Assembly (NCBI GenBank): GCA_025453925.1
Contig: JALOPK010000029.1
Location: forward strand, 1 to 17,264
Direction: 5' to 3'
DNA length: 17,264 nucleotides
Source: Candidatus Eiseniibacteriota bacterium
Lineage (GTDB): Bacteria > JAFGKV01
The notes under the pieces were generated by a model. The model made no database searches and had not been told where the DNA came from. It saw nothing but the letters and a program-made list of their open reading frames with translations. The position numbers and the translations under genes are program-made. This document shows positions 6,592 through 15,572 of this stretch, piece after piece (the stretch's first letter is position 1; each line of letters starts with the position of its first letter).

Positions 6592-6700
6592 TTCAGCCCG
6601 CCGTCGCGTCGGCAGTCCCGCTCCGCGCTCCGCATTCTCCGCGCCTCCGCGTCTCTGCGGGAGATCATGGTGTTCATCACTCCGAGCTCCGCGCTCCCCC
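6592..6700. repeat. Convergent intergenic region filled with 7-bp and 8-bp short repeats
   Basis: This gap between the methyltransferase stop and the hybrid-kinase stop contains three repeat tracts. Two 7-bp units (CTCCGCG, CTCCGCA) occupy 6621-6634. Three 8-bp units (CTCCGCGC, CTCCGCGT, CTCTGCGG) followed by GAGA occupy 6637-6664. Three 7-bp units (CTCCGAG, CTCCGCG, CTCCCCC) occupy 6680-6700 and end exactly at the kinase TGA. The 8-bp tract resembles the CTCTGCG-type repeat I recall from intergenic DNA of many environmental bacteria. No rho-independent terminator is evident. Confidence 0.7.
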
Positions 6701-9673
6701 TCATCCCTCCAGCGCCTCCCGGACTTTCCGGGCCAGCGCTTCCATGGTGAACGGCTTCTGCAGGAACCGCACTCCCTCCTCCAACACCCCTCGTCGCGCC
6801 ATCACGTCCGCCGTGTACCCCGATATGTACAAACTCCTCACCCCTGGCTTAACCTCTTCCATCCGCCTCGCCAACTCCCGCCCGTTCATCCCCGGCATCA
6901 CCACGTCCGTGATCAACAGGTCGATCTCCCCGCCGTGCTCCTCCGCGCAGCGGATCCCTTCCTCGGGGCTGACGGTGCTCATCACCCGATACCCCAGTGT
7001 TTCCAGCATCCGAACTCCCATCCCTAGCACCGCCTCGTCGTCCTCCACGAACAACACCATCTCACCCCGTCCCCGCACCGCGCCCCCCTGCGAATCCTGT
7101 TGCCTATTCTTCTCCTCACCCTCGTGCCGCGGCAGGAGAATCTTGATGGTCGTCCCCTTCCCGACCTCGCTGTGCACCTCGATGGAGCCCCCATTCTGCT
7201 TGACGATCCCGTGTACGGTGGCCAATCCCAGGCCGGTCCCCTCGCCAATTCCCTTCGTCGTGAAGAACGGTTCGAAGAGGTGCGCCTGCACCTCCGTTGA
7301 CATCCCACAACCCGTGTCGCTCACCGTCAGCATCACGTACCCGCTCAGCGGGGTTCCCGCATGATCGGTGCCGGATTCCCCATCGAGCCGTATGTTCTCT
7401 GTCTGAATGGTGACTTCGCCGACTCCCTCGATGGCATCCCGGGCGTTCACGCACAGGTTCGCCAGCATCTGATCCACCTGCGAGGGATCTATCTGCACCA
7501 TCCACAGGTTTCCCGCCGGCTTCCACGACAGCGTGATGTCCTCCCCGATCAGTCGCCGCAGCATGCTGAGCATCCCCTCGATGGTCTCGTTCAGGTCAAC
7601 CACCTTGGGCTGAACGACCTGCTTCCGCGCGAACGCCAGCAACTGCCGCGTGAGATCCGCCGACCTCAGAGCCGACTTCCGCGCCTCCTCCAGATCGCCT
7701 CGAAGCGGGTCAGCGGGGGAGAGCCGGCTGAGCACCATGCCGACATGGCCGAGCATGACCTGGAGCATGTTGTTGAAGTCGTGGGCCACCCCGCCCGCGA
7801 GGCGCCCGACCGCCTCCATCTTCTGGGCCTGCAGGAACTGCGCCTGGAGCCTCTCCCGCTCGTCCTCAGCGTTCCTGCGCTCGGTGATGTCACGGTAGAT
7901 CCCGTAGACGCCGAGCTGGTCGGGGCCGAGCCCGATCGGGTTTCCCAGGACCGAGACGTGGATCCTCCTGCCGTCTTTTGCCTGCCGGATAGTCTCGAAG
8001 GAGAGGTGCTTTCCCGCCGCCACCTGGGCCGTCGCCTCGGCTCCTTCGCTCTTCCGGTCCGTGGGAACGATGAGGTCGTTGATCTTGCGGCCAACCGCCT
8101 CGTGGGGCGCATACCCGAACAGCCTGGCAAACTCCCGGTTGACCCGCTGGACCACATCGCTCTTGTCGAGCACGACAATGGCCTCGGGCGCCCCTTCGAA
8201 CAGCTCCTGCAGGTACGTGGTCTGGACGCGCAAGGCCTCTTCCGCCCGTTTCCGCTCGGTGACGTCGCGGACGACGCTCAGGAAGTGCGGGCCATCCCGG
8301 AGCTGCAGCACCTCGCCGGAGATGAGCCCTTCAATCACTGCGCCCGACTTGATCCTGAACGTGGTCTCGAAGTTGACGGCTCGGCCGTCCTTCCGTACGA
8401 GGGCCATGTAGCGGTCGCGGCTCGACGGATCAGCCCAGAGGCCCAGGTCCGTGGTGGTGCGGCCGAGCATCTCCTCAACCGTGTAGCCGGAAATCCGAAC
8501 CATGCCCTCATTGACTTCGACGATGCGACCATCCGGAACCGTCGTGAGCAGAATGGCATCGGGGCTCGCCCGAAACGTCTTGGCGAACCGCTCCTCCGAG
8601 ATGCGCAGGCCCTCTTCCGCCCGTCTCCGTTCAGTGATGTCCAGCGCGGCCAACGCGACTCCGCGGCCGAGGTTGGTGCGGTCGAAGGCCGCGCTGCTCA
8701 GGATGACATCCAGGATGCAGCCGTCCTTCCGTCGGAAACGGGTTTCGACGGTGCCGATGCCGCGGTTCTCGATCTGCGCGTACTTCTCGCGGCCGACCCG
8801 CTCGAACTCCTCGTCGCCGGGAAAGATCATTCGCGACGACCGGCCGAGCAGGTCGTTCCGGTCATATCCGGTCAGCTCGCAGAGCCGGTCGTTGACCTCT
8901 GTGAACACGCGGTCGACGACCACGCCCATGCCGACCGGGGCGCCGCGGAAGATAGCCTGAAGCTTCTGCTGGCTCTGCAGAATACGACGGTTCGCGCGTC
9001 GGAGCCCGATCAGAAACAGACCGAGACTCGCCACAAGCAGCACCAGCGCCACCGGCAGGGCCGCGCGAGCAAGGGCATGCCGCCGCCAGTTCGCGGCGGA
9101 GATGTCCATGCCGAGAACTACCCGTGGGTCGCCGGCCACCTGCGGGACGAGGGGAACGAACGCACTCACCCAGGTGCCCCAACGATCCGTGAACGGGCCT
9201 TCCACGATCTCCTGCCCGCCGGTGAAGGCGGCGTGGACCTGGGGCGTCGCTTCGTCATACGCCTGTCCCGGTGGCGATTCATCCGGGGAGCCCGGGGGTT
9301 CCGAGTCGACGAAGAAGAAGACCGTTCCCTCCAGTCTCCGCCCCATCAAGTACAGGAAGCGGCAATCGGGGTTGGCACGGCGGACCAAAGCAAGCTGCTC
9401 TTTGAGCCGCACGTAGTCGGGCGATCCCAGATCGGCTTCCTCCCCGCGCAGTGCCGCCACGCGCGCGGGGCTCACCGACCAGGCAATCATCCGCGCTTGC
9501 TGCAGAAGCTCAGCGCGGAGCTGGCGGTCGGCACGGTACGTCATGTCCCAGATGGCCACCCCCGACAGCGCCACGACCACCGCGATAGAGGCAACCGCGA
9601 AGGCGGAAGGCTTCCGAAAGTGGAAGACGGGACCTTCCGAACTCGGAGCGCGGAACGCGGAACGGAGGCTCAT
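6701..9673 (-). CDS. Membrane-anchored hybrid sensor histidine kinase (3 PAS, receiver)
   Basis: This 990-residue hybrid kinase begins with a transmembrane helix (~24-43), an extracytoplasmic sensor domain (~44-200, with the patterns [20 protein letters not shown] and [13 protein letters not shown]) and a second helix (~204-224). Three PAS domains follow (~233-350, 358-475, 484-600), then a dimerisation/phosphoacceptor domain with GGVAHDFNN (H631), an ATPase domain (N-box N739/N743, D786 in [13 protein letters not shown] at 810-817) and a C-terminal receiver (E877/D878/D879, phosphoacceptor D923, K973). It should autophosphorylate on H631 and pass phosphate to D923 or another receiver of the operon. 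The ATG at 9673 overlaps the IVP stop as ATGA and has AAGGAAG 5 nt upstream, so translation is probably coupled. Residues 4-10 are encoded by the left arm of the inverted repeat bounding the IVP gene. The last ~390 residues are very close to those of the giant kinase upstream. Confidence 0.95.
9642..9668 (+). repeat. Left 7-bp repeat array, inverted partner of the array at 10030-10060
   Basis: Read in sevens the tract is CTCGGAG, CGCGGAA, CGCGGAA, CGGAGG. Bases 9646-9662 (GAGCGCGGAACGCGGAA) are the exact reverse complement of 10044-10060. The tract lies inside the first codons of the hybrid kinase, just past the IVP stop codon. Confidence 0.85.
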
Positions 9674-10023
9674 GGGTGCTTCCTTGCTGTTCGGATCGAC
9701 GCAACAACCATGGCCAAAATCTCGTCGGCCTCCTGGTACAGTTCCGTGACGAGATTCTCCTCCGTCAGCCCGGCTTCGACAATCAACTCCATCCAGTACA
9801 TGCTTTCGTCCGCTTCCTCTTCCACCGTCCCCATCTCGCTGATGAAGTCGGCGTTTGATTTCGCCCGTTTGGCTGCACGGTAGTTCGCCCCGACGCTGGT
9901 CCCGGCCCTTAAGAGCTGATCCCTGATCACGCGCCCTTCAGTCGTTGCTGGCAGTGCACTCGACAGCTTCATGACTCGCAACGCGAACCCCTTCGTTCCC
10001 TCCCTCAGTTCATCTCTGCTCAT
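9670..10023 (-). CDS. Four-helix-bundle protein, 23S rRNA intervening-sequence (IVP)/Avd-like family
   Basis: This 117-residue protein has the family hallmarks: an N-terminal TKGFALRVMKL helix, then RDQLLRAGTSVGANYRAAKRA (~34-54), the ADFISEMGTVEEEADESMYWMEL core (~58-80) and a final helix ending in a basic tail. Members form a four-helix bundle that oligomerises. They were first met as ORFs inside 23S rRNA intervening sequences, and they are related to Avd, the accessory protein of diversity-generating retroelements that binds nucleic acid. Most free-standing members have no known function. Here it is not in an rRNA gene, and no reverse transcriptase or template repeat is visible. The ATG at 10023 has only a weak GGAATGAGAG leader, partly supplied by the flanking repeat array. 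Its TGA overlaps the downstream kinase ATG. It is bounded by inverted 7-bp repeat arrays (9642-9668 and 10030-10060) and sits between two paralogous hybrid kinases, which suggests insertion as a unit. Confidence 0.9.
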   Translation of the reverse strand: MSRDELREGTKGFALRVMKLSSALPATTEGRVIRDQLLRAGTSVGANYRAAKRAKSNADFISEMGTVEEEADESMYWMELIVEAGLTEENLVTELYQEADEILAMVVASIRTARKHP

Positions 10024-10029
10024 CTCTCA

Positions 10030-10060
10030 TTCCGCATTCCGACTTCCGCGTTCCGCGCTC
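10030..10060 (-). repeat. Right 7-bp repeat array, inverted partner of the array at 9642-9668
   Basis: On the plus strand there are four consecutive units, TTCCGCA, TTCCGAC, TTCCGCG, TTCCGCG, then CTC. Bases 10044-10060 pair exactly (17 of 17) with 9646-9662. The array starts 6 bp upstream of the IVP start codon and its outer edge overlaps the first two plus-strand bases of the giant kinase stop codon (10059-10061). Confidence 0.88.
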
Positions 10061-13000
10061 ACCCCTCCAGTGCTTCACGCGCCTTTCGCGCCAATGCCTC
10101 CAGCGTGAATGGCTTCTGCAGGAAGTGCACCCCCTCCTCCAACACGCCCCTTTGCGCCATCGCGTCCGCTGGATAGCCCGACATGTAGAGGCAGCGGACT
10201 CCTGGCTTGATCTGGGCAACGCGGTCCGCCAGATCCCGCCCGTTCATCCCCGGCAGCACCACATCGGTGAGCAGAAGGTCGATCACCGGCTCCTCCTCCG
10301 CGCGCAGGATCGCCTCCGCGGGATTCCCCGCGCCCACCACGCGATATCCCAACCCGCCCAGCATCCGCACTGCCATCCTGAGAATGGCCGCATCATCCTC
10401 CACCAGCAGCACGTTCTCCCCGGCGCCGCGGGGTGCCTCCTCGATGCCGGGTTCGCCTCGCTCTCCCACCGCCTCGCTGAACGCCGGCAGGTAGATGGCG
10501 AATGTCGTCCCCACGCTCTCTTCGCTGTACGCCTCGATGTAGCCATCGTTCTGCTTCACGATCCCGTATACGGTGGACAGCCCGAGCCCCGTGCCTTCTC
10601 CCACGCCTTTCGTCGTGAAGAACGGCTCAAACAGATGCTCGCGCACCTCGGGGGACAGGCCGCACCCGTTGTCGGTCACCAACAGTCGCACGTAGTCGCC
10701 GACCACGGCACCCGGGTGGAGCGCGCGATACGTTTCATCAATACCTGCATTGGCCGTCTCGATGGTCACCTCGCCCACTCCCCCGATGGCGTCACGGGCG
10801 TTCACGCACAGATTCGCCAGGACTTGATCCACCTGAGAAGGATCAATCTTCACGGTCCACAGGCCCGCGCCTGGCTTCCACGTGAGGCCGATGTCTTCGC
10901 CGATGAGCCGCCGCAGCATCTTGAGCATCCCGGCGATGGTATCGTTGAGATCGAGCACTCTGGGACTCACGGTCTGCTTCCGGGCGAATGCCAGGAGCTG
11001 CCGCGTCAGGTCCGCGGACTTGCGCGCCGCCGACCTGATCTCTTCGAGATCTCCGCGGAGTGAGTCTCCGGGGCCGAGCCGCATCAGTGTGAGCTCCACA
11101 TGGCCGAGCACCACCTGGAGCATGTTGTTGAAGTCGTGGGCCACCCCGCCTGCGAGCCGCCCCACAGACTCCATCTTTTGTGCCTGGATGAGCTGCGACT
11201 GCAACCGCTCCCGTTCCTCCTCGGCGCGCTTGCGATCCGTGATGTCGGTGATCGCGCCAACATAGCCACTCACGTTCCCGTCCGGGCTCACCTCGGGAGT
11301 GGCCAACCCCATCACCCAGACTATGCTGCCATCAGGCCGCAGGAATCGATACTCGGCGCGTGAAACCACCCTCTCCTGGGACTCTCGCTCCCAGGCCTCG
11401 GCCAATGCGACCCGGTCGCTGGGGTGCACGGCGCGAAGCCAGCCGGCGCCCATCGCCTCAGCCGCGGCCAGTCCCGACATCTCTGACCACCGGGGGTTCA
11501 CGTAGGTGGTCGCCCCCTGGGCATCGGTTCGGAAAACGCCGATCGGCGCCATCGTCGTCAGCGTTGCGAACAGCCGCTCGCTTTCCATCAGAGCTTTCTC
11601 CGCGCGGCGCCGTTGGACGATTCTCAACACGGAGTCCATCAGCAGCGTGAGCTGGCGGACGTCTGCGCCGTCATATTCAGTCTCCTTGTTCGCCACGCCG
11701 ACCACGGCCACGATCTTACCGTCGACGCGCACCGGGATCGTCATGAACCTCTTCAACTGAGCGTGCCCCTCCGGATGGCCCTTCTTCATGGGATGCGGCG
11801 CCGCGAAGTCGTTGATCACGATCGGCATTCCCTGTCTGACCGCCTCTCCCCACGCCCCGGTCTTATCCAACTCATAAATCGTCTGCGGCTCGAGGATCGA
11901 GCACTCCTTCATTACGCTCTTCGACCACGTGCTGAGGGTGAGAAGCCGCGTGCTCTCGTCATAGTGATAGATGTAGCCGAGCGTGCTCCCCGTCAGCCGA
12001 ACCGCTTCGTCCAAGGCATGGTCGAGGAGATCCTGCTCGGTCCCGGCCTCGAACTGCGCGAGGCGGACCAGGCCCTCGAGCCGCACCTCGTTCCGCTGCC
12101 GCTCTCCCTCCAGCCGCTTGCGCTCTGTGATATCCCTGACGACGCCCTGAATGACGATCGTGCCTCCACGTTGATACGTGGTGAGCACCACCTCGGCGGG
12201 AAACAGCTCGCCATCCGCTCGTTGATGCACCCACTCGAAGCGCAAGAACCCGCCCTTCTCAAGCATCTCCCGAATCAGCTCGCGCGACGCGACAATTGAT
12301 TCGCGGCCATCAGGCTGGCGGGGAGGGGAGAAATCGGCGGGGCGCCGCGCAATGAACCGGGACTTGCTCTCCACGCCGAACATCTCCAACGCCCGCTGGT
12401 TACAGTCTATGAAGTGGCCGTCTTCGGTAATGATGGTGATGGCATCGTGCAGTCCTTCGAAGGCGGCCCGGAGCTGCCCCTCGCTCTCCCGCAGGCGCCC
12501 CTCCGCCACCTCCTGCTCGGTGACATCCTGCATCACCCCGAATGCACGGATCACCTTCCCCGAGCTGTCCCGCGCGAGTTCGATGCTTTGCGCCAGATGC
12601 CGAACGGCGCCGTCCGGCCGGATGATCCGGAACGCATACATGCCGCCCTCTCCCAACTGAAGCAGCTCGCGGAGCTTGGAATCGTTCAGGTCTCGGTCTT
12701 CCGGATGGATCATCGAGACGATGCCTTGATGCGTGAGCGCGAAGTCCTTCGACACCCCCCAGATCCGATAGAGCTCATCGGACCAGACCAGCCGCTCGCC
12801 GGGTATATCCCAGTCCCAGCTTCCGAGGCGGCCAATCACCTGGGCCCGGGCCAGCGCCCGCTCGCTTTCCCGCAGCGCCTCCTCGGCCTGTTTGCGCTCC
12901 GTGATATCGCTCACGAGGCCGACCGAGCCGATTATGGTGCCGTCAGGGCCGTACATCGGCGAGCCGCAGATCGAGACCCAGACCTGCCGGCCTTCCGCCG

Positions 13001-15563
13001 TGATCATCCTCGATTCGTAGCTGTCGCTCGTGCCCTGTCGCCGCGCCAGGGTCTTCGACCTGATCCGCTCCCACTCGCTCTCCGGCGCGAACATTTCGTA
13101 CCCGATCTTCCCCACCAGCTCGTCGGCGCTCCTTCCGACGATCTGGCAGAACCGTGCGTTGACGTATTGGATCCGGTCATCATTGTCGGATTGGATGACG
13201 CCCTCCGCCATCCCCTCGACCAGCGTCCGATACCTGGACTCGCTCTCGCGCAGCGCCGCCTCCATTCGCGTGCGGGCCGTGATGTCATGGGCGGCCACGA
13301 CGGCATGCCGTTCCCCGTCGAGCATGAGCGGCTCCACATTTGCCTCGAACCACCGGGCTTCCTGACCGCGATCAGTCTCAATCTCCATCTCGACGGTACT
13401 GTGGTACGCCGCAGACCGGCCCTGCAGCACCTCCCGGACGGCAGTGTACAGTCCGCAGGAATCGCATTGCGGGGTCTTCCCGCATCCCCGAGGATCGTCG
13501 TGGCGGCGCGCACATCCAAGAAGATCTCCGCAGCGACGCTGGCGGAGGTCCTCGATGCCGCGCCCGAAGAGCCCTGCCGCCGACGGGTTGCAGCGGGTAA
13601 TCTCCTCGCGCTGATCCACCACGAAGAGCGCCACCGGCGCGGCTTCCATGATGGCCTGGAGGTTGTTCCGCTCGACCTGCAGGGCACGCTCGGCGTGCCT
13701 CCGCTCGGACACATCGCGGAAGCTCCACACACGGCCCAGGATATCCTCCCCCAACCGCTGGGGCTGCGAATAGCGTTCGAACACCCGGCCGTCCTTGAAG
13801 GTCAGCTCGTCCAGTGACGCTTCCTCGGGCGCATCGTAGAGGTGTCTCACTTTGGCCAGGAAGAGCCCAGGATCCTCGAGTTGGTCGAGGACATAGCCCA
13901 GGAGCCTCTCATCATCTCGGGCGGCCGCCAGCGGCTCGGGAATGCGCCAGAGTTCAAGGAACCGCCTGTTGTAGCTCGTCACCCGTCCCTGGCGGTCGAC
14001 CACGAGTACGCCGTCCGCCGTTGATTCCAGGGTGGCGGACATGAGCGAGTGCGATGTCCTCAGTTGCTCCTGTGCCCTCCTGTGCTCGGAGATATCCACG
14101 TGGATCTCCAGCACCAGCGCCTCGCCGTCGGTGTCGGTGTATGGATAGTCGTACACGGCGAATACCCGCCCGCGCGAATCGACCCACTCGCCTTCCCGGG
14201 GAAGTCCGGTTCGCAGGACACTCAGGGTCTCGCACGGATCGCAGGGCGCGGCGCGGCCCTTGAAAACCTCGTAGCAGGGCCGCCCTCGCGGATCGTCAAA
14301 CGCGCGCAGGAATGCAGGATTGACGAATCGGAACGAGCAATCCGACCCAATCAGACAGAGCGGGAGGGGCATGGCCTCCAACACGGAACGGAGTCGCGCC
14401 CGCTCCACGGTAACCGCCTCCCCGGCTGCCTTGCGGTCGGTGATATCGGTGATGAGCCCCACCGAGCCATCCACGTTCCCGTCGTCATCGTGCGTCGGCG
14501 CACCGCTGACCTCGACCCACCTGAAGCCGCCGTCCTTGGCCATCATCCTGAGTTCGTAGCGGTCCGCGAACCCCTGACGCCGGAGCTCGTTCTTCGACTG
14601 GAGTAGGGGGCGATCGGCGGGTGCGACGAGCACCTCATAACAGCTTCCGCCGATGAGCTCCGATTCGTCGTATCCCAGCATGTCGCAGAGACGCCGGTTG
14701 ACGAAGATGATGCGCTCGTCAAGGTCGGCGCGGACGAGCCCCTCCGCCATCTGCTCCACCAAAGTCCGATAGCGGGCCTCGCTCGTCTCGAGGATCGCCT
14801 GCGCCCGCCTCCGTTCGGTGATGTTGGTGAACACACAGTGGGTCTGCAGGAACTCGCCGTGAGTTCCCCGGGCGATCCGTCCGTCGAAGGACACCGTGAT
14901 GGTGCCTCCGTCTCTCCGCCGCATCTCGAACTCGACGCCGTGGACGTGGCCGACCTCCTTGAAAACCGTGAATCGCTCTCTGAACAGCACCGGGCCGTCG
15001 CCTGCGAGGAAGTCGCCGAACCACCTGCCGATGACCTCTTCGCGCTCGTACCCCAGTTCGGCAAGCCAGGAATTGTTCACCTCGAGGATCGTCCCGTCCG
15101 CGGCGAGCGACTGATACGGTCCCGGAGACTGCTCGTACAGCCGCCGGAACCTCTCCTCGCTCTCCCGCAGGGCATGGTTGGACCGCTGCCGTTCCACCGA
15201 GAACCGCACCACGCGATGAAGCAAGCCGGCGGGAATCTGCCCCTTCACCAGGTAGTCCTGGGCGCCGACCCGAACCGCCGCCATGCCGGTCTCGGCGTCA
15301 TCATAACCGGTCAACACGATGACCGGAACGGAAGGCACCGTGGCGGTCACGGATCGGACGGTCTCGAGCCCCTGGCTGTCGGGGAGGCCGAGGTCCAGCA
15401 GAATGACGTCGGTGGCCTCGCGCCGGAGGCGCTCGAGCGCCGCTGAAAGGCGGTCAACCGCCTCGATCTGGATGTCGGAGGCATCGCGCAGGATCTCCCG
15501 GACCAGGCGCGCATCGCCGGGGTTGTCTTCGACGAGCAGCAGACGAATCCGTACCGTGTCCAT
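10059..15563 (-). CDS. Giant soluble hybrid histidine kinase, REC-PAS(9)-GAF-HisKA-HATPase-REC
   Basis: This 1834-residue protein has no membrane segment and is probably cytoplasmic. Domains in order: receiver (~3-122, phosphoacceptor D57, K107); PAS domains at ~136-252, 260-378, 387-497, 502-623, 626-766, 773-893, 900-1018 and 1027-1149; GAF (~1162-1318); a ninth PAS (~1327-1445); phosphoacceptor domain with GGVAHDFNN (H1476); ATPase (N1584/N1588, D1631, GEGTGLGL at 1655-1662); and a receiver (~1716-1834, D1767, K1817). The third and fifth PAS carry Cys clusters (C430/C441/C444 and C678/C684/C694/C700/C703). The N-terminal receiver suggests control by another kinase, perhaps the GAF kinase two genes upstream. 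I chose the ATG at 15563 because GGGGAGG lies 9 nt upstream; the ATG at 15572 directly abuts that site and would add three residues. It starts 24 bp after the response regulator stop. Its stop codon overlaps the repeat array bounding the IVP unit. Confidence 0.94.
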
Positions 15564-15572
15564 GCGATGCAT

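Follow-up and report, generated by a model that had tools for sequence, protein, structure and literature searches.

An IVP gene cassette with inverted heptamer arms as a probable counterpart of intervening sequences outside rRNA

The window studied here, meaning the whole 17,264-nt stretch of DNA that was analyzed (contig JALOPK010000029.1, assembly GCA_025453925.1, from a Candidatus Eiseniibacteriota bacterium), contains a 415-bp cassette in which a gene for an IVP, a four helix bundle protein, lies between two inverted arrays of 7-bp units. We put the probability at roughly 0.6 that this feature is one copy of a widespread IVP cassette family, the counterpart outside rRNA of the intervening sequences (IVSs) of 23S rRNA, whose arms and gene are carried in operon transcripts, presumably cut by RNase III and probably moved by host recombination. 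Cassettes of the family are about 0.4 kb long, hold the IVP gene between inverted arrays whose units are 7 bp long, or at times 8 or 9 bp, and have no transposase, integrase or reverse transcriptase inside them. The arrangement is general, occurring across many bacterial phyla with a different 7-mer at nearly every site.

The window cassette (9646–10060, minus strand) consists of a 5′ arm, the IVP gene and a 3′ arm, and has an exact inverted repeat at its ends: the 17 bp at 9646–9662, GAGCGCGGAACGCGGAA, are the reverse complement of 10044–10060, with 381 nt between, just as the first-pass annotation of this DNA had described a perfect repeat of 7-bp units around the gene. Allowing up to one mismatch, TTCCGCNTTCCGC occurs four times in the window, every time at one of the two arms, while in 200 dinucleotide shuffles of the window its count averages 0.15, peaks at 2 and never reaches four (0/200); the inverted repeat far exceeds chance expectation for this window. 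The 5′ (left) arm (10030–10060, minus strand), whose outer 17 bp (10044–10060) are perfectly complementary to the 3′ arm, comprises four 7-bp units (TTCCGCA, TTCCGAC, TTCCGCG and TTCCGCG, at 10030–10057), and the 3′ (right) arm (9640–9666, minus strand; exact part 9646–9662) has two exact inverted units, together with one or two that have decayed. These bounds are supported by the homologous cassettes of other genomes, which terminate at their own arms. The sole gene inside, IVP (9670–10023, minus strand), encodes 117 aa that match PF05635 (2.1e-17, 63.7 bits, curated cut-off 33.8) and TIGR02436 (1.1e-24, 86.8 bits, curated cut-off 24), with PDB 2RLD as a solved relative (8.8e-16). The cassette thus ends in terminal inverted repeats, as do insertion sequences and miniature inverted-repeat transposable elements (MITEs), and no transposase of its own lies within the 415 bp; neither a PADLOC model for anti-phage defence nor a PHROGs entry matches the feature. 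In the predicted window transcript, the two arms pair in both the minimum free energy and the centroid structures. Ratios of nonsynonymous to synonymous substitution (dN/dS) between orthologous IVPs are mostly 0.05–0.15, with one pair at 0.28, values that indicate purifying selection and therefore argue that the protein is used.

A protein search with the window IVP returned 80 relatives from many phyla, flanked nearly everywhere by inverted 7-mer arrays whose words differ between loci (GCGGAAC, GATTGCG, GATTTGC, CGATTTT, TGACGAT and others). An IVP profile was then built, and a survey of 80 regions, each at most 20 kb around IVP genes, in 12 genomes yielded 203 distinct genes; as the regions were picked around IVP genes, the resulting figures describe specificity among IVP neighbours rather than a genome-wide census, and many loci come from metagenome-assembled genomes, in which individual contexts may be wrong. 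Period-7 array positions reach 78.7 per 1000 within 60 bp of an IVP gene and fall with growing distance to 39, 16, 7 and 1.5 per 1000, against a far background (0.6–12 kb) of 1.1–2.9 per 1000, so that 7-bp arrays are ~30–70 times denser near the gene; periods 4–6 and 10–12 stay at about zero there, and periods 8 and 9 rise less than 7. The arrays are also inverted. Among the 197 genes with both flanks, 55% have an upstream flank matching the reverse complement of their own downstream flank at a score of 14 or more, as against 1.3% when loci are mispaired and 0.2% in shuffles; matches in direct orientation reach 8%. Regardless of word, G outnumbers C in 84% of the 5′ arms and in 14% of the 3′ arms, and inverted 7-mer pairs with a gene-sized loop (330–560 nt) hold an IVP gene in 44 of 49 cases, a second common class being a gene-less hairpin with a loop below 60 nt. 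The first-pass annotation had noted that short repeats often occur near free-standing IVP genes and had called for a check that arrays are enriched there and inverted; the pattern proved general and the check was passed. A division of the 7-mer units into a conserved core and a variable spacer, as would point to a protein-binding site, was not supported overall (substitution share of the most variable column 0.385 observed vs 0.383 expected; adjacent variable columns in 7/15).

The cassette is gained or exchanged as a block. Three cassettes that are 86–89% identical (L035, L040, L038) occupy unrelated sites and lose homology at their arms, two copies with unrelated flanks share one genome (L233, L234), and related cassettes sit at non-homologous sites in different phyla. 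Among pairs for which no shared flanks were detected, the arms match in 68% at IVP identities of at least 70% and in no more than 5% below that; arm type tracks the IVP lineage, and the arms travel with the gene. At the lspA-lgt site, two genomes (G020, G022) are 96% and 91% identical outside the cassette, and inside it their IVPs are 66% identical and their 7-mers differ; a second pair (G007, G008) is split in the same way, the types pairing across the two lineages. Trees give the same picture: in approximately unbiased (AU) tests, with clades named after these identities had been seen, the species pairing is rejected on the IVP data (7.6e-7, 5.5e-5), and on the Lgt data it is the IVP pairing that is rejected (1.6e-50, 1.6e-103). 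In other Acidobacteria the site is empty, or holds a gene-less 7-mer hairpin or a single array; IVP-less members also share a short repeat between lspA and lgt, GCAGAAACACGACC(G/T)GTAGGGAGTGTGCC (L264, L269, L275, L276, L284, L285, L286). A swap is likewise seen in the window's genus (L001 vs L154) between genes read from sequence as MoxR-like and DUF58-like, where the IVPs are 55% identical and the words differ. The arms of close orthologues vary in unit number and by scattered changes, and compensatory base changes between the arms of orthologous cassettes were not evident on inspection by eye only.

Near-empty sites come from Nostoc plasmids, taken from annotated database records that are nearly all described as complete. 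Plasmid A of Nostoc sp. C052 bears a 431-bp cassette with 36-bp perfect arms at a position where plasmids D and B have 197 bp of other sequence, and the flanks of A and D are 99.8% identical on the right and 90.5% on the left. In Nostoc N6 and ATCC 53789, a 469-bp cassette stands in place of 331 bp of a cytosine methyltransferase gene, whose uninterrupted form is present in Nostoc C052 and UHCC 0302. Neither of the two events left a target-site duplication, and both look like deletion-replacement if the gene-intact, widely shared form is taken as ancestral. At the methyltransferase site, a copy of the cassette's 7-mer (CAATTCG) adjoins the left breakpoint in the intact gene, as would be compatible with microhomology; the plasmid A/D case has no such 7-mer. 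Derivation of the arms from the target site was not adopted, because related cassettes at non-shared sites keep their arm type and the plasmid A/D case is negative. Taken with the two copies in one genome, the non-homologous sites and the swaps between conserved neighbours, these near-empty sites bear out the earlier proposal of a discrete mobile cassette free of any transposase. No comparably clean site turned up for the window copy; one genome of the same genus (G030) offers only a decayed relative after the paralogous kinase.

Orientation and placement tie the gene to its host operons. By a simple open reading frame (ORF) heuristic, among 125 loci with agreeing neighbours, both neighbours share the direction of the IVP gene in 120 cases and oppose it in 5, a bias unexpected for a randomly orienting DNA element and expected from dependence on host transcription. 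The cassette usually extends from the stop of one gene to the start of the next (median gaps of 61 bp before and 55 bp after the IVP gene). In the window, both neighbours are histidine-kinase/receiver genes co-directional with IVP, the upstream (10059–15572, minus strand) and downstream (6701–9673, minus strand) host genes each being an ORF read from sequence as a sensor kinase with a C-terminal receiver domain. At its outer end the 5′ arm shares bases with the upstream kinase's stop codon (10059–10061), the 3′ arm lies within the called first codons of the downstream kinase (start 9671–9673), and the ATG of the latter overlaps the IVP stop.

The closest relatives of the window copy (L026–L032) are 69–80% identical, come from different phyla, carry the same GCGGAAC word and adjoin sensor-kinase and response-regulator genes, again by functions read from sequence. 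In G030, a long GCGGAGC/GCGGAAC array and an IVP pseudogene, which is truncated, come after the downstream-kinase homologue, and at the same place after the downstream kinase the window has an array remnant (GAGCGCGGAGCTCGGAG ... GCGGAGCGCGGAGCGGG; approximately 6615–6700, minus strand). The truncated gene and the remnant therefore indicate that cassettes decay into arrays, which may explain some IVP-less arrays. The motif CCCGCAGAGACGC(A/G)GAGGCGCGGAGAATGC accompanies both remnants (window 6615–6700; G030, L295:4500–4640) and may belong to a 9-bp repeat class that is also enriched near IVP. G030 has no intact IVP upstream of its downstream-kinase homologue, and at a similarity of ~50–60% it was not used as proof of an empty site. 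Across the 3.9-Mb draft genome of the window, TTCCGNN arrays of at least three units occur only at the cassette and at C301:131–149, where the array adjoins dinB without an IVP gene; the stretch before dinB (L300:120–300; G000, C301) has a GCGGAAC-type array and a GAACGGTGAACCG stretch and no IVP gene.

IVP genes also occur in other settings. On plasmids, related cassettes lie inside defence operons (L287, L288, L289, L292, L293), arranged as drmD-IVP-pglX (DISARM) in Planktothrix, DUF1156-IVP-Swt1 in Gloeocapsa and Chlorohelix, csx2-IVP-cas1 in Pseudanabaena, and helicase-IVP-methyltransferase in Dolichospermum. The DUF1156-Swt1 gap that holds IVP in Gloeocapsa is occupied by XisH, XisI and a Uma2 gene in Tolypothrix (L350:1278–3042), and XisI comes after an IVP gene in Nostoc commune SO-36. 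A further genome (G039) has 19 partial matches to PF05635; most of them form divergent pairs whose members are separated by a few hundred bases (for example, C2:122174–122711 and C3:436717–437275), and these pairs look like a different architecture of the family.

Under the IVS-type reading, the cassette would have no promoter of its own and would be expressed by operon read-through. In the transcript the arms would pair into a long hairpin with the IVP gene in its loop. RNase III could cut this hairpin, and the cut would free the IVP message from the host genes, as for the IVS in 23S rRNA; the IVP may then bind its cognate arms. Transfer as DNA would most likely rely on host recombination, in which the cassette takes the place of host DNA by deletion-replacement without target duplication, and slippage together with hairpin-templated copying could keep the two arms repetitive and complementary. 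More tentatively, and at odds that we would not favor, the cassettes might form a transposase-free mobile class that spreads by taking the place of host DNA, with lineage-specific tandem 7-mer arms through which each cassette is recognized and which copying keeps complementary, and with IVP as the sole cognate factor; the rRNA IVS would then be one specialized branch, and many scattered heptamers would be decayed traces.

Several observations weigh against the IVS-type reading. Overall, the window transcript is predicted to fold no more stably than shuffles do (z −0.37), a clean empty site is lacking for the window copy, and movement, RNA processing and IVP binding are all inferred from sequence. 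Because ~45% of IVP genes miss the arm-match threshold, the arms are lost, or not always needed, at some of them, and one locus (L116) has an identical IVP without its 5′ arm. Some genomes hold many arrays without IVP; because some TTCCGNN arrays of Verrucomicrobia are far from any IVP gene, heptamer arrays are not exclusive to these genes. Two Verrucomicrobia genomes (G002, G017) have dozens of scattered TTCCGNN array sites and just 3 and 6 IVP genes.

Among other explanations, the one that we consider best placed, though still unlikely, is that IVP is not itself mobile: it would be passed down vertically as part of its operon, its flanking hairpin would serve to regulate or process the operon RNA, and sharing between genomes would be ordinary exchange through homologous flanks. 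Sense orientation, stop-to-start placement, purifying selection, positions kept over long times at some sites, and the repeated kinase and response-regulator neighbours of the window lineage would all follow from it, but it does not account for copies at non-homologous sites whose similarity stops at the arms, for the insertion inside a methyltransferase gene, or for gain on one of two sister plasmids. Those same copies at unrelated sites, along with the inverted ends, the discrete unit and the MITE-like short-loop hairpins without a gene, would suit a classical transposon whose arms are terminal inverted repeats read by a transposase or recombinase supplied in trans. We regard this, too, as improbable, and a little more so: arm sequence varies by locus even within one genome, unlike the ends of one enzyme, host DNA was replaced without target duplication in two events, the sense bias is strong, and no transposase gene lies inside the cassette.

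The first-pass annotation had also raised copying through RNA, which found no support here. Such retro-mobility, in which a reverse transcriptase acting in trans copies the cassette RNA and IVP acts like Avd, would draw on the kinship of Avd and PF05635 (PMC10053308) and on the sense orientation within transcripts; however, RVT_1 shows no association with IVP (6/24 genomes with IVP, 10/36 without), genomes with 6–9 IVP genes have no RVT_1, and none was found in the window's draft genome (82% complete), making this account very unlikely. Least probable of all is that the arrays are neutral microsatellites produced by polymerase slippage and next to the gene by chance. Heptamers are over-represented in bacterial genomes, slippage has been proposed for them (PMC4692102), and arrays far from IVP exist, but the mispaired-arm control (55% vs 1.3%) contradicts it, as do the enrichment at IVP, the gene-sized loops that nearly always hold the gene, and the G/C polarity of 84% vs 14%. 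The IVS-type reading would give one setting to three things: the common four-helix-bundle (IVP) genes without an assigned function; unexplained heptamer repeats; and the unexplained mobility of rRNA IVSs. Plasmids A and D of Nostoc C052 are concrete sites for direct study of movement, RNA processing and arm recognition.

Free-standing IVP cassettes or their arms had no earlier description in the literature searched, which excluded preprints and included few subscription papers. Like MITEs and other non-autonomous elements, the cassettes are small, have inverted ends, and occur as scattered copies and gene-less hairpin forms; unlike MITEs, they carry a conserved gene, have tandem-array ends that differ between copies, and made no target duplication in two cases. 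Their units resemble published heptamer repeats (GGGAATC in Xanthomonas and GGGGA(T/C)T in Nostoc, PMC4692102; TAACTGA in Beggiatoaceae, PMC4679880) in being 7-bp, tandem, intergenic, often by start codons and sometimes inverted, but those repeats stand alone in both reports with no link to IVP, whereas the units described here make up the paired arms of a cassette with a gene inside. The protein family is related to the Avd of diversity-generating retroelements (PMC10053308), from which the cassette differs in that no reverse transcriptase was found with it; template and variable repeats were not found either, with repeats listed for the 1.8-kb center only and no dedicated test. The closest parallel is the 23S rRNA IVS of Coxiella burnetii, 428–444 nt long with a 28-bp stem and the S23p gene sense in its loop, which is cut by RNase III and has GACAGAT heptamers upstream of the gene (PMC4990558, our only source for heptamers in rRNA IVSs). 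The window cassette shares the size of ~0.4 kb (415 bp), complementary ends able to form a stem (17-bp perfect arms, paired in the predicted RNA), an IVP-family gene in the loop and sense to the host transcript, and heptamers upstream of it, and the two also share a scattered distribution with horizontal transfer. It differs in location, as these cassettes lie in operons of protein genes and not inside an rRNA helix: the window has no Rfam match and so no 23S or 16S rRNA helix, and none of the collected IVP loci is similar to 23S rRNA. It differs as well in that both arms are arrays of locus-specific units and that cutting by RNase III would here be presumed. By location, then, the window cassette falls outside the 23S IVSs, although it plausibly functions in the same way.
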